Assembly (NCBI RefSeq): GCF_027789125.1
Contig: NZ_JAQFVF010000026.1
Coordinates: forward strand, 124,001 to 188,000
Direction of reading: 5' to 3'
From: Paenibacillus aestuarii
GTDB lineage: Bacteria; Bacillota; Bacilli; Paenibacillales; NBRC-103111
DNA: 64,000 bases
The translations under genes and the position numbers were made by a program. Below, one piece after another: positions 24,848 to 46,888 of the stretch. The notes beneath the pieces are model-generated. The model worked only from the letters and a program-made list of their open reading frames with translations. It searched no databases and was not told the DNA's origin. Numbering within the stretch: position 1 is the first letter of the stretch; each line of letters begins with the position of its first letter.

Positions 24848-26170
24848 ATGGCACAACGTACATTAAGGCTTGGAGCCAACTTGAATGGCGTCGGAAACAG
24901 CATCTCTTTCTGGAGACATCCGGACGTTCCCGTCAATGCGAGTGTCGACATTGAATTTTATAAGCAGCAGGCGCGCAAGGCGGAAGAAGGAAAATTCGAC
25001 TTACTGTTTATCGCCGACGGGTTATACATCAATGAGAAATCCAATCCGCACTTTCTGAATCGGTTCGAGCCGTTGACGCTGCTGACCGCACTAGCTGGTG
25101 CTACGTCCCACATCGGGCTCGTTGCGACGCTGTCCACCTCTTACAGCGAACCGTTCACGGTTGCCCGGCAATTTGCTTCGCTGGATCACATCAGCGGTGG
25201 TCGAGCGGGCTGGAACGTTGTGACATCGCCGTTGGAAGGATCGGCGCTGAACTTCGGTAAAGGCGAGCATCCGCACCATGCGCTGCGTTATGAGATCGCC
25301 GAGGAACATTTGGAAGTCGTCAAGGGGCTGTGGGATTCCTGGGAGGACGACGCTTTTGTCAGGGATAAGGCGAGCGGAGTGTTTTTCGACCCGGCTAAGC
25401 TGCATACGCTTGGGCACAAAGGCAAGCATTTTGACGTTCAAGGACCGCTCAATATCGCGCGTTCCAAGCAGGGGTATCCGGTTATATTCCAGGCGGGTTC
25501 GTCGGAATCGGGCAAAGACCTCGCCGCCAAGTCGGCTGATGCGGTATATTCGGGCCATGAGACGTTCGAGGAGGCCAGACAATTTTATCAGGACGTCAAG
25601 GCACGAGCTGTAGCCTTTGGGCGGAATGCCGACGATATTTTGATTTTTCCTGGCATTGGCCCCATCGTTGGTCGTACAGAAGCGGAGGCAGAGAGCAAAT
25701 ATCGGGAGATCGCCGAACTGGTGGACATTCAGCAGGCGCTCAATTATTTGGGCAGGTACTTCGAACATTTTGACTTCGCGCAGTTTCCGCTCGACGAGCC
25801 GTTTCCTGATCTTGGCGACTTCGGCGACAACAGCTTCCGCAGCACGACGGAGCGAATCAAGCGGGAGGCGAAGGAGCAGGGCCTTACGCTGCGCCAAGTA
25901 GCACTGAGAGCTTCGACGCCACGCAGCAATTTCATCGGTACACCGGAGCGGGTGGCGGACCAGATCCAGCAGTGGTTCGAGGGGGGCGCTGCCGACGGCT
26001 TTAATGTGCGCACGGTGGTGCCGAATGGATTGGCTGATTTCGTCGATCTCGTCGTGCCGATCCTGCAGGAGCGGGGCTTATTCCGTAAAGCGTATGAACA
26101 TGAAACGCTGCGAGGCAATCTTGGGCTTGCGGTGCCGGAGAATCGTTATAGCGGAAAAGTATCTGTGTAA
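24848..26170 (+). CDS. Flavin-dependent monooxygenase, NtaA/YtnJ (CmoJ-like) family
   Basis: This protein of about 440 residues belongs to the NtaA/SnaA/DszA group of FMNH2-dependent monooxygenases. Typical segments are FWRHPDVPVNASVDIEFYK, LLFIADGLYINEKS, SLDHISGGRAGWNVVTSPLE, GLWDSWEDDAFVRDKASGVF and VIFQAGSSESGK. B. subtilis YtnJ, which oxidatively dealkylates N-acetyl-S-alkylcysteines, is a family member next to a cystine-type transporter, as here. It starts the long salvage operon, with AGGAGG five to ten bases before the ATG. An alternative start lies ten codons upstream inside the operator region and is unlikely. Confidence 0.9.
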   Translation: MAQRTLRLGANLNGVGNSISFWRHPDVPVNASVDIEFYKQQARKAEEGKFDLLFIADGLYINEKSNPHFLNRFEPLTLLTALAGATSHIGLVATLSTSYSEPFTVARQFASLDHISGGRAGWNVVTSPLEGSALNFGKGEHPHHALRYEIAEEHLEVVKGLWDSWEDDAFVRDKASGVFFDPAKLHTLGHKGKHFDVQGPLNIARSKQGYPVIFQAGSSESGKDLAAKSADAVYSGHETFEEARQFYQDVKARAVAFGRNADDILIFPGIGPIVGRTEAEAESKYREIAELVDIQQALNYLGRYFEHFDFAQFPLDEPFPDLGDFGDNSFRSTTERIKREAKEQGLTLRQVALRASTPRSNFIGTPERVADQIQQWFEGGAADGFNVRTVVPNGLADFVDLVVPILQERGLFRKAYEHETLRGNLGLAVPENRYSGKVSV

Positions 26171-26200
26171 TATTTCAATCATATGAGGGGGAAGAATCCA

Positions 26201-27091
26201 ATGAAATCTTTGAAAAACGTGAACACTATGAAAACCGCTACAGTAACGCTAGCATCTTTGCTTCTGCTGGCCGGCTGCGGATCGAAGGATGCTGCTGCAC
26301 CAGCTGCTGCAACAGCTGCTTCCAGCGCCGTGTCTGGTTCGGCGCCTGCGGCGACCGCCGGCTCGGCCGCACCGGCGAAAGTAAAGAAAATCGTCGTCGG
26401 CACGAGCGGCACGTTCAAGAACGTGACCTTTCTCGACGATAAGGGGAATTTGACCGGGTATGACATCGAGCTGACGAAGGAGATCGATAAGCGATTGCCC
26501 GGTTATGAGTTCGAGTTCAAGACGATGGAGTTCCCGAACATCCTCCTCAGCCTGGAAGCCGGAAAGATTGATCTGGCCGTCAATCAGTATGAAGTGAATA
26601 CGGAACGGCAATCCAAGTTTCTGTTCAACGACGAAGCGTATAATATTTGGCCAAGCAAACTCGTCGTCAATAAGGATAATAACAAGATCCAATCCATCGA
26701 AGATCTGAAGGGGAAAAAGGTGATTTCCTCGCCGGGCAGCAATGGGGCGGCTTGGCTTCAAGACTACAACAAGTCACACGGCAATCCTTACGAGTTGGTG
26801 TTTTCGGGAAGCGGCGGTACGAACGACGTCATTAACCAACTGAAAGCAGGGCGCGTCGATGCTACGATCAGCACGCCATTTGCTGTCGCGAATCAAAACC
26901 GTGATGCGGACGCACAGCAAAAAGTGGTCGGCCCTGTACTCTACACGTCGAAAATCTATTACGTGCTGCGCAAAGATGAGAACGATCTGAAAGGCAAAAT
27001 CGACGAGGCCATCCGGGAGATCAAGAAGGACGGGACGCTGGCTAAGTTGAGCAAACAGTGGCTTGGCGAGGACTTCACGGTAAACGAATAA
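26201..27091 (+). CDS. Cystine/amino-acid ABC transporter binding lipoprotein (TcyJ/TcyK-like)
   Basis: This family 3 solute-binding protein of about 296 residues has the lipobox LLAGC and an Ala-rich linker. The fold signature is KIVVGTSGTFKNVTFLDDKG followed by LTGYDIELTKEIDKRL. It is most like the cystine and sulfur-amino-acid binding proteins of Firmicutes (TcyA/J/K, YxeM). It belongs with the two permeases and the ATPase downstream. RBS GAGGGGGAAG precedes the ATG. Confidence 0.88.
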   Translation: MKSLKNVNTMKTATVTLASLLLLAGCGSKDAAAPAAATAASSAVSGSAPAATAGSAAPAKVKKIVVGTSGTFKNVTFLDDKGNLTGYDIELTKEIDKRLPGYEFEFKTMEFPNILLSLEAGKIDLAVNQYEVNTERQSKFLFNDEAYNIWPSKLVVNKDNNKIQSIEDLKGKKVISSPGSNGAAWLQDYNKSHGNPYELVFSGSGGTNDVINQLKAGRVDATISTPFAVANQNRDADAQQKVVGPVLYTSKIYYVLRKDENDLKGKIDEAIREIKKDGTLAKLSKQWLGEDFTVNE

Positions 27092-45531: not shown

Positions 45532-45547
45532 AAAGCAGGGGAAAGAG

Positions 45548-46888
45548 ATGGGAACGAAAAGACAACTGAAGCTGGGAGCTATTCTTCACGGTGTTGGCGG
45601 GAACATATCCGGATGGAGGCATCCCGATGCTATTACAGATGCGAGCGTGAACTTTGAACTCTATAAAAAATGGACACTAAAAGCGGAGGAAGGCAAGTTT
45701 GATTTCGTCTTCATCGCCGACGGATTGTATATTACTGAGAAATCGATTCCTCATTTCCTGAATCGTTTCGAACCGATCACCATTCTCAGCGCGCTTGCAG
45801 GCATCAGCTCGAAAATCGGTTTGGTAGGCACGTTATCGACATCGTACAGCGAACCGTTTACGGTGTCCCGACAATTCGGATCGCTGGATATGATCAGCGG
45901 AGGAAGAGCCGGCTGGAACGTGGTGACTTCCCCGCTTGAAGGTTCAGCGCTCAATTACGGCAAAACGGAACAGCAGCATCCGACGCATTCGGAGCGTTAC
46001 AAGATCGCCAATGAATATTTGAAGGTTGCGACAGGACTGTGGGACTCCTGGGAGGATGATGCGTTTGTCCGCAACAAAGAGACCGGCGTCTTCTTCGATC
46101 GCGAGAAAATGCATACGCTCAATTTCTCCGGAGACTACTTCTCCGTAAAAGGGCCGCTGAACATTGCGAGATCCAAGCAGGGGCAGCCTGTTATTTTCCA
46201 GGCGGGCGCCTCCGAATCGGGTAAGCATTTCGCTGCCAAATGGGCGAATGCCATTTTTACCGGCCAAGAGACGGTGGAGGAGGCGAAACAGTATTACGAC
46301 AACGTGAAAAAGCGTGCTTCAGCGTTCGGCAGGAAGCCAGAAGAAATCGTGATTATGCCGGGAATTGGCCCGATTATCGGTAGGACGGTCGAGGAAGCTG
46401 AACGCAAATACGAAGAAATCGCCAATCTGGTATCGATAGATAAAGCTTTGGACTTTTTGGGTAGGTTCTATGAGCATCATGACTTCTCCCAGTATGCGCT
46501 TGATGAACCGTTCCCGGATCTTGGAGATTTGGGCAAAAACAGCTTCCAAAGCGCGACAGACCGCATGAAGGCGTGGGCAAAAGCTGAACAACTGACCTTG
46601 CGGCAGGTGGCCTTGCGTGTCGCTACACCGAAGCCTTCCTTCATCGGAACGCCGGAGTCGGTCGCTGACAAGCTGCAGAACTGGTTTGAGGCTGGCGCCG
46701 CAGACGGCTTTATTGTAGGCTCCGCCACGCCAAAGGGCTTGGAGGAATTCGTCGACCAAGTGGTGCCGATTTTGCAGCAGCGCGGACTGTTTCGTGAGGA
46801 GTATGAAGCGGATACGCTGCGTGGCAACTTGGGATTGCCGTTTCCTGAAAACCGTAACGCCAAAGGAGAACAATATATTTTACAATAA
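45548..46888 (+). CDS. Flavin-dependent monooxygenase, NtaA/YtnJ family (paralogue 3)
   Basis: This protein of about 446 residues is closely related to the gene at 29994, sharing GRAGWNVVTSPLEGSALNYG, KGLW/TGLWDSWEDDAFVR and PVIFQAGASESGK blocks. It differs by a short insertion (EQQHPTHSERY) after the first of these. The ATG at 45548 follows AGGGGAAAGAG. It is the last gene of the island. It probably oxidatively cleaves the C-S bond of an N-acylated S-substituted cysteine. Confidence 0.9.
   Translation: MGTKRQLKLGAILHGVGGNISGWRHPDAITDASVNFELYKKWTLKAEEGKFDFVFIADGLYITEKSIPHFLNRFEPITILSALAGISSKIGLVGTLSTSYSEPFTVSRQFGSLDMISGGRAGWNVVTSPLEGSALNYGKTEQQHPTHSERYKIANEYLKVATGLWDSWEDDAFVRNKETGVFFDREKMHTLNFSGDYFSVKGPLNIARSKQGQPVIFQAGASESGKHFAAKWANAIFTGQETVEEAKQYYDNVKKRASAFGRKPEEIVIMPGIGPIIGRTVEEAERKYEEIANLVSIDKALDFLGRFYEHHDFSQYALDEPFPDLGDLGKNSFQSATDRMKAWAKAEQLTLRQVALRVATPKPSFIGTPESVADKLQNWFEAGAADGFIVGSATPKGLEEFVDQVVPILQQRGLFREEYEADTLRGNLGLPFPENRNAKGEQYILQ

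Follow-up and report, generated by a model that had tools for sequence, protein, structure and literature searches.

In S-alkylcysteine salvage, CmoO makes a sulfoxide, from which CmoJ produces N-acetylcysteine sulfenic acid and an aldehyde by cleavage (PMC10863075). The M20 enzymes ScmP, YhaA, and YtnL free cysteine from N-acetylcysteine, and genes for an acetyltransferase, a monooxygenase, and a deacetylase are present in each of the scm, yha, and ytn clusters of Bacillus subtilis (PMC12757645). The 2SL enzymes are reported to cleave N-acetyl-S-(2-succino)cysteine (PMC9706529). The repressor CymR is described as controlling cysK, ssu, mccAB, and tcyP in B. subtilis (PMC3828012) and, together with CysK, as repressing ytlI and the ytmI operon in Listeria (PMC9239247). 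Here, a 64,000-nucleotide stretch of Paenibacillus aestuarii (part of contig NZ_JAQFVF010000026.1, C26, of a 7.08-Mb genome; the whole stretch analysed is termed the window) was examined for a 22-kb island of 21 genes, all on the + strand, that starts at 24818 or 24848, depending on the open reading frame (ORF) call, and ends at 46888. Its gene content and upstream sites suggest that it probably encodes a CymR-controlled, enlarged version of CmoO/CmoJ S-alkylcysteine salvage with a second importer, recovering cysteine from S-substituted cysteines. An earlier note, made from the DNA letters alone, had called the system larger than those described, which fits the composition of the B. subtilis clusters given above.

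Three YtnJ-type monooxygenases

By score, identity, and tree position, N1 (24848..26170, +), N2 (29988..31352, +), and N3 (45548..46888, +) are YtnJ/CmoJ-type flavin mononucleotide (FMN)-dependent monooxygenases, with a predicted role in the cleavage of N-acetyl-S-alkylcysteine sulfoxides. All three exceed the TIGR03860 (NtaA/DmoA-family) cut-off of 279.7 bits (575.8, 566.6, and 540.0 bits, respectively), as do eight proteins in the genome in total, and they share 59.8%, 59.5%, and 59.9% identity with YtnJ (= CmoJ) and 68–73% among themselves. The best PDB rows were 6ask (‘MoxC’, which shows the same letters as YtnJ in the alignment) and two YtnJ-named entries (589–601 bits). The chain 3sdo, which its depositors named nitrilotriacetate (NTA) monooxygenase, ranked below YtnJ (514–542 bits); we know of no assay behind that name. 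Lower scores were obtained for 7e36_B (294–348 bits), the DszA-like 5tlc (296–318 bits), dimethylsulfide monooxygenase (227–259 bits), and ethylenediaminetetraacetate (EDTA) monooxygenase (5dqp; 215–236 bits), and these far lower scores rule out the last two enzymes as nearest kin of N1–N3. The earlier note had assigned the three enzymes to the YtnJ type and had set firm grouping with NTA, EDTA, or pristinamycin oxidases against it; the assignment holds on identity (~60%), PDB score, and tree, the EDTA enzyme is clearly not the closest relative, and the NTA-named chain falls under YtnJ, in a set of PDB rows that contains no pristinamycin oxidase.

In a tree of 96 rows, built by a quick method with 25 open forks and YtnJ as the sole characterised reference, YtnJ fell inside an 83-row clade (support 100) with N1, N2, and N3, while N0-type rows fell outside. 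N0 is a fourth, more distant NtaA-family member in the window (8546–9919; 43% identical to YtnJ). N1, N2, and N3 each fell into a supported group shared with other species (7 rows, support 99; 5 rows, support 100; and 5 rows, support 100, respectively), which marks them in this tree as old paralogues.

An importer paired with YtnJ-type genes

The island carries a complete SBP_bac_5-type importer, consisting of the binding lipoprotein SBP5 (34941..36584, +; PF00496), permeases B (36600..37541, +) and C (37542..38435, +), both with profile matches, and a two-ATPase protein with OppD and OppF in a single chain (38448..40454, +; two ABC_tran and two oligo_HPY stretches). SBP5, which the earlier note had called peptide-type, is a member of a binding-protein clade tied to YtnJ-type genes. 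At E ≤ 1e-120 it occurred in 25 of 60 genomes (own included) at 32 places, all of them within 7 kb of a YtnJ-type match and 27 within 400 bases. Class-wide, SBP5 was present in 24 of 398 genomes, three of which (own, G052, and G055) were already counted in the close-relative set; in the 21 further genomes a YtnJ-type match lay within 10 kb in 17 and within 400 bases in 16. The pairing was also counted in 79 named loci (from the 80 top-ranking of at least 588), divided into 38 SBP5 loci at ≥41% identity and 41 controls at 30–39%, a set that overlaps with the relatives’ genomes (e.g., L107 = G023). An NtaA-family ORF (≥40%) was found in 33 of 38 SBP5 loci versus 1 of 41 controls (Frankia), and a YtnJ-type ORF (≥55%) in 31 of 38 versus 0 of 41, or 29 of 35 versus 0 of 19 in a strict count of loci with long flanks.

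An FMN-reductase-like ORF family was present in 9 of the 38 SBP5-bearing loci, to which this search was confined; both members scanned were SsuE-type and over cut-off, and the other seven were grouped by similarity only. Such reductases near SBP5 would be expected for two-component FMN monooxygenases. At L112–L115 (~13.6–14.4 kb) the SBP5 importer genes are followed by an FMN-reductase-like ORF and the locus has no OppDF-type match; the importer there would need an ATPase from elsewhere. In Niallia nealsonii (L133), SBP5 is followed by a CE1758-like gene (71%) and a YtnJ-type gene lies 5 kb upstream, and in P. agri (L139) a CE1758-like luciferase-type gene (81% to that of the window) precedes SBP5 in the place of a YtnJ-type gene. 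A literature search short of most subscription journals turned up no publication that pairs an importer of SBP_bac_5 type with YtnJ-type enzymes, and no importer for larger conjugates is named in the sections of the CmoO/CmoJ salvage literature consulted.

A predicted CymR-type operator

The operator search began from the seed AATNGGAATT, which was picked once it had been noticed ahead of both SBP5 and LysR in the window, and because GGAATT is a feature of CymR boxes; other genomes and genes then served to test it. The seed occurs twice in the window, at those two places, against 1.03 expected, and two occurrences were reached in 28 of 100 shuffles. At other loci its sites, which align as TTAAAACCnAnTAAATCAATnGGAATTAT, were intergenic in 9 of 20 and 26 of 48 cases, compared to 14% and 16% of bases being intergenic; in control loci, 0 of 1 sites were intergenic. 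A matrix was then built from 20 distinct sites of relatives, excluding the window and its own genome and including no cysK or sulfate-importer site.

The six top-scoring places of this matrix in the window all lie upstream of genes, four in the island and two before operons further upstream. Those in the island precede LysR (41070..41098, −; score 33.3; overlapping a promoter-like site at 41080–41108), SBP5 (34877..34905, +; 30.5; just behind a promoter-like site at 34840–34868), the ATPase gene of the cystine-type importer (28642..28670, +; 19.6), and N1 (24800..24828, +; 18.0); those outside precede an ABC importer that is followed by an argininosuccinate-lyase-like gene (13669..13697, −; 18.3) and N0 (8375..8403, −; 15.6). 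Five are intergenic and that at 24800 overlaps an upstream start codon of N1. Over 30 local shuffles of the window the maximum was 14.7, and none of 500 column-permuted matrices yielded six places ≥15 (mean, 0.084; largest, 2), though the two strongest sites (41070 and 34877) may resemble training sites by descent.

In the remainder of the genome, sites were found at the cysK genes on contigs C32 (19.2) and C23 (18.6, overlapping the start of the longest ORF) and at the sulfate importer cysT-W-A-sbp (22.4 and 14.4), whose divergent neighbour is itself preceded by a site of 28.1. The genome also encodes CymR (NF047409, 237.6 bits; cut-off, 195), beside a cysteine desulfurase and mnmA. Because of these neighbouring sulfur genes and the CymR gene, the operator is named CymR-type and is predicted to be a CymR box. 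With training sites dropped, sites ≥15 occurred in relatives at 38 of 75 cluster genes versus 28 of 353 others, and in named loci at 22 of 72 versus 15 of 258; control loci gave 0 of 3 and 2 of 315, with a maximum score of 15.2 across 659 kb. Relatedness among the genomes and overlap between the sets make the p-values of these enrichments too small. Of 110 places ≥18 around the relatives’ clusters (training sites included), 70 precede genes matching window genes. Two patterns were also run against the whole genome: pattern 1 matched exactly at two places, both of which lie in the island, and at four more with a single mismatch, while pattern 2 gave four matches, of which two on C33 were low-scoring; each reversed pattern gave two. 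For the sulfur reading of the earlier note, the predicted cysteine-repressor operators, found before the island operons and equally at the sulfate importer and two of the three cysK genes, add support, and the pathway itself is put forward below as a proposal.

Elsewhere in the genome, an operator of 23.0 (L199:1495; G000:C23) stands close to genes of rhodanese-like and DsrE2-like type (the latter matched under cut-off). A run of co-directional genes on C18 (L048:8207-19288 and L049; G000:C18) has head operators of 27.5 and 19.0 and two NtaA-family genes at least 7 kb downstream of the head operator. An NtaA-family pair on C89 scored 13.5 at most.

Layout of the island

The gene order is N1, SBP3, two permeases, ATPase, DinB, N2, double GNAT, Trx9, OsmC, a luciferase-like flavin enzyme (LLM), SBP5, OppB, OppC, OppDF, GNAT, LysR, MsnO8-family, M20, MTOX-type oxidase, and N3, so that all gene classes named in the earlier note were recovered as ORFs with family matches. 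N1 likely begins at 24848, the start given in that note, and not at 24818, because the predicted operator at 24800–24828 overlaps the upstream ATG. The N3 start, an ATG at 45548, lies behind AGGGGAAAGAG, within a longer ORF from 45374. Scanning with Rfam returned zero matches at gathering scores, and a tRNA scan led nowhere.

The cystine-type importer comprises the amino-acid substrate-binding lipoprotein SBP3 (26183..27091, +), permeases 1 (27125..27832, +) and 2 (27866..28555, +), for all of which the top match was the corresponding cystine ABC transporter component (NCBIfam in the case of SBP3), under cut-off, and an ATPase (28671..29465, +; TcyN, 360 bits, under the cut-off of 406) whose true start is probably 28713. 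The DinB_2/bacillithiol-transferase-like protein (29509..29976, +) was assigned by family match; its bacillithiol-transferase-like match is under cut-off, and the histidines of its HLAD and HxxxH motifs are kept in 6 of 6 copies checked. The double GNAT (31380..32402, +) is a 340-aa chain of two domains. Stand-alone GNAT genes in the loci of 12 relatives, including the GNAT of ytmI-like operons, match its C-terminal half, and its N-terminal half matches such a gene in one relative (G015). The double GNAT is followed by the Thioredoxin_9 protein Trx9 (32422..33036, +; PF14595, 101.9 bits), with a single cysteine (WCGDV), an OsmC-like protein (33033..33581, +; PF02566, 54.8 bits), which was unmatched in the stretches of relatives examined, and LLM (33578..34708, +), whose nearest families, CE1758 and Atu2307, were both under cut-off.

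Downstream of the SBP5 importer lie a GNAT acetyltransferase (40484..41044, +; PF00583), the LysR-type regulator (41158..42126, +; PF00126 and PF03466), an MsnO8-family flavin enzyme that is YtmO/CmoO-like by family and position (42162..43223, +; TIGR03558, 362.5 bits; cut-off, 166.95), and an M20 amidohydrolase in the place of the N-acetylcysteine deacetylase (43193..44392, +; TIGR01891, 408.1 bits; cut-off, 153.75). The flavin adenine dinucleotide-dependent N-methyl amino acid oxidase of the MTOX/sarcosine oxidase family (44389..45531, +) had been labelled sarcosine-oxidase-like; the family stands, and the top, over-cut-off match is N-methyl-L-tryptophan oxidase (NF008425, 426.7 bits; cut-off, 257).

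Conservation in relatives

Stretches around YtnJ-type genes were mapped in 19 relatives chosen for high similarity to N2, a neighbourhood comparison that the earlier note had proposed; in all, four relatives showed similar blocks of 16–18 genes and a fifth a half-block. The blocks of G007 (18 genes), G011 (18), and G013 (17) keep N1 and N3 and run N1, GNAT, SBP3, permeases, ATPase, YtmO-like, DinB, GNAT, LLM, SBP5, OppB, OppC, OppDF, LysR, M20, SoxA (in two of three), and N3, and the block of G023 (16 genes) has a similar order with M20 and N3 unmatched. That the island is an accident of one genome is ruled out by these four blocks. The YtmO-like gene follows LysR in the window, whereas it follows the cystine-type ATPase in the relatives, which, unlike the window, have one GNAT beside N1. 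N2, Trx9, and OsmC are extras of the window, unmatched in these blocks and in that of G018. SBP5 was present at ≥60% identity in 14 of the 19 relatives but not in the other five. A tighter ytmI-like operon (LysR, GNAT, SBP3, permeases, ATPase, YtmO-like, M20, DinB, and N2) was found in G045, G058, and G033, with SoxA between M20 and DinB in two.

Neighbouring loci

Upstream of the island, N0 (window 8375–12228) lies behind its predicted operator with an SsuA-type binding protein and a threonine-synthase-like pyridoxal phosphate enzyme. At 13669–20186, the operator and ABC importer are followed by an argininosuccinate-lyase-family paralogue (17742–19202), itself preceded by a weak site (11.4) at 17609, and an Amidohydro_2 protein. 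A role for the paralogue in the arginine pathway was rejected on account of a far better argH at C72 (682.7 versus 330.8 bits). S-(2-succino) lyases are members of the lyase class I family, and it is possible that the paralogue is such a lyase; G023 has a 56% relative of it upstream of N1. Adjoining the island on the other side (47042–50885) are a CrtO/CrtI-like flavoprotein (under cut-offs) and a GMC oxidoreductase fused to a gluconate-2-dehydrogenase-subunit-3 domain.

Proposed function and alternatives

In the proposed scheme, CymR would leave its operators when cysteine is short and the LysR-type regulator would activate the operons. S-substituted cysteines would then be taken up by the cystine-type importer, while larger forms that carry them, most probably short peptides or conjugates of thiols, would enter through the SBP5 importer. 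After N-acetylation of the amino group by a GNAT and sulfoxide formation by the YtmO-like enzyme, cleavage of the C–S bond by N1–N3, each with a different preferred side group, would yield N-acetylcysteine sulfenic acid plus an aldehyde, in line with CmoO and CmoJ (PMC10863075). The thiol helpers (DinB-like, Trx9, and OsmC) could reduce the sulfenic acid in the stead of YtnI or deal with side products, and cysteine would finally be set free by the M20 enzyme. Published pathways rely on these enzyme classes too (PMC10863075, PMC12757645, and PMC9706529). The MTOX-type oxidase might act on by-products such as thiazolidine or N-methyl forms, the weakest step of the scheme.

Several observations weigh against this scheme. 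The operator is named from its neighbours and the CymR gene and not from a published consensus; the third cysK of the genome is without a site (5.2); of the 110 high-scoring places in relatives, 23 precede other ORFs and 17 precede none; and four matches of the two whole-genome patterns, set beside the two of each reversed control, are, judged by eye, not before sulfur genes, among them the one-mismatch matches of pattern 1 on C65 and C88. SBP5 lies far from YtnJ-type matches in 4 of the 21 class genomes (G369, G419, G437, and G446), and 5 of 38 SBP5 loci are without an NtaA-family ORF at 40% and seven without a YtnJ-type ORF at 55%. By tblastn, L120 has an NtaA-family match missed by the ORF count, L125 has an N0-type match, L140 has N0-type matches and one at 24%, and L130, L132, L134, and L139 have no NtaA-family match. 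The SBP5 fold fits nickel, peptide, glutathione, and opine binders alike and does not distinguish the ligand (model mean predicted local distance difference test score, 70). Among the 21 island genes there is no match to a YtnI-like glutaredoxin, a riboflavin kinase (RibR-like), or a flavin reductase, and G018 keeps the half from N1 to LLM to SoxA without the SBP5 block.

Detoxification or repair is an unlikely alternative, in which electrophiles bound to bacillithiol or cysteine would be degraded inside the cell, the importers would do no more than recover leaked conjugates, and sulfur nutrition would be secondary. The DinB_2 protein, with its under-cut-off match, and the OsmC and Trx9 genes would suit it, as would the published view that the scm, yha, and ytn clusters serve metabolite repair (PMC12757645), but two complete importers, and predicted operators that the island has in common with cysK and the sulfate importer, speak for a nutritional role when cysteine is short. 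We give a similarly low chance to an SBP5 importer that carries a metal-metallophore complex or an unrelated peptide and stands beside YtnJ-type genes only as blocks travel together: the exceptions to the pairing and the resemblance of SBP5 to NikA and CntA, as well as to dipeptide and glutathione binders, are consistent with it, whereas the position of SBP5 directly beside a YtnJ-type gene in 27 of 32 places, with the rest of the cluster variable, and its own predicted sulfur operator at 34877 argue otherwise. That N1–N3 act on other sulfur compounds (sulfones, sulfides, or sulfonates) and share just the YtnJ fold and sulfur control is very improbable, since, although the NtaA/DmoA family includes enzymes for dimethyl sulfide and dibenzothiophene compounds (PMC10863075) and the more distant N0 adjoins an SsuA-type binding protein, N1–N3 are 60% identical to YtnJ, score far lower to dimethylsulfide monooxygenase and DszA-like enzymes, and are set among GNAT, YtmO-like, and M20 genes.

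Under cysteine salvage, the reading preferred here, what is new relative to the known pathway would be the importer pairing and the predicted cysteine-shortage switch. Tentatively, one or two YtnJ-type genes directly followed by SBP5, two permeases, and in some cases an ATPase may form an unnamed, widespread, CymR-controlled module of Paenibacillaceae and some other Bacilli that imports S-conjugates bound to peptides or low-molecular-weight thiols (of glutathione, cysteinylglycine, or bacillithiol type) and strips them to cysteine, which would make it a bacterial and catabolic equivalent of the mercapturate pathway. Electrophile detoxification is reported to give rise to cysteine S-conjugates that reach soil, and CmoO/CmoJ explains the fate of free S-alkylcysteines (PMC10863075); the SBP5–YtnJ pairing offers a testable candidate importer for larger conjugates, and three diverged, separately conserved YtnJ-type enzymes are a natural set for learning how the removed group is chosen.

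Comparison with known systems

The island resembles the B. subtilis ytmI-tcyJKLMN-ytmO-ytnIJ-ytnL locus in its cystine-type importer, GNAT, MsnO8-family enzyme, YtnJ-type enzyme, M20 enzyme, LysR-type regulator, and predicted CymR control, with the MsnO8, GNAT, and M20 proteins likened to YtmO, YtmI, and YtnL/SndA/YxeP by family and position only. Its distinguishing features are a trio of YtnJ-type enzymes, a complete SBP_bac_5-type importer on top of the cystine-type one, a GNAT with two domains, and additional DinB, Trx9, OsmC, CE1758-like, and MTOX-type genes, while the YtnI- and RibR-like genes of the B. subtilis locus are unmatched in the island. SBP5 has TIGR04028 (KPN_01854), also an SBP_bac_5 protein, as its top NCBIfam match, but under cut-off (293.1 versus 468.5 bits). 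With the B. subtilis yxe/scm system for S-(2-succino)cysteine breakdown, the island shares the logic of acetylation, breakdown, and deacetylation and an ABC importer (PMC9706529), and it differs in that its monooxygenases are YtnJ-type. As in the Bacillales CymR regulon, there is a CymR gene, and the sulfate importer and two of the three cysK genes carry the same predicted operator, but here the regulon would take in about six operator places in one 64-kb stretch, one of them before the SBP5 importer.

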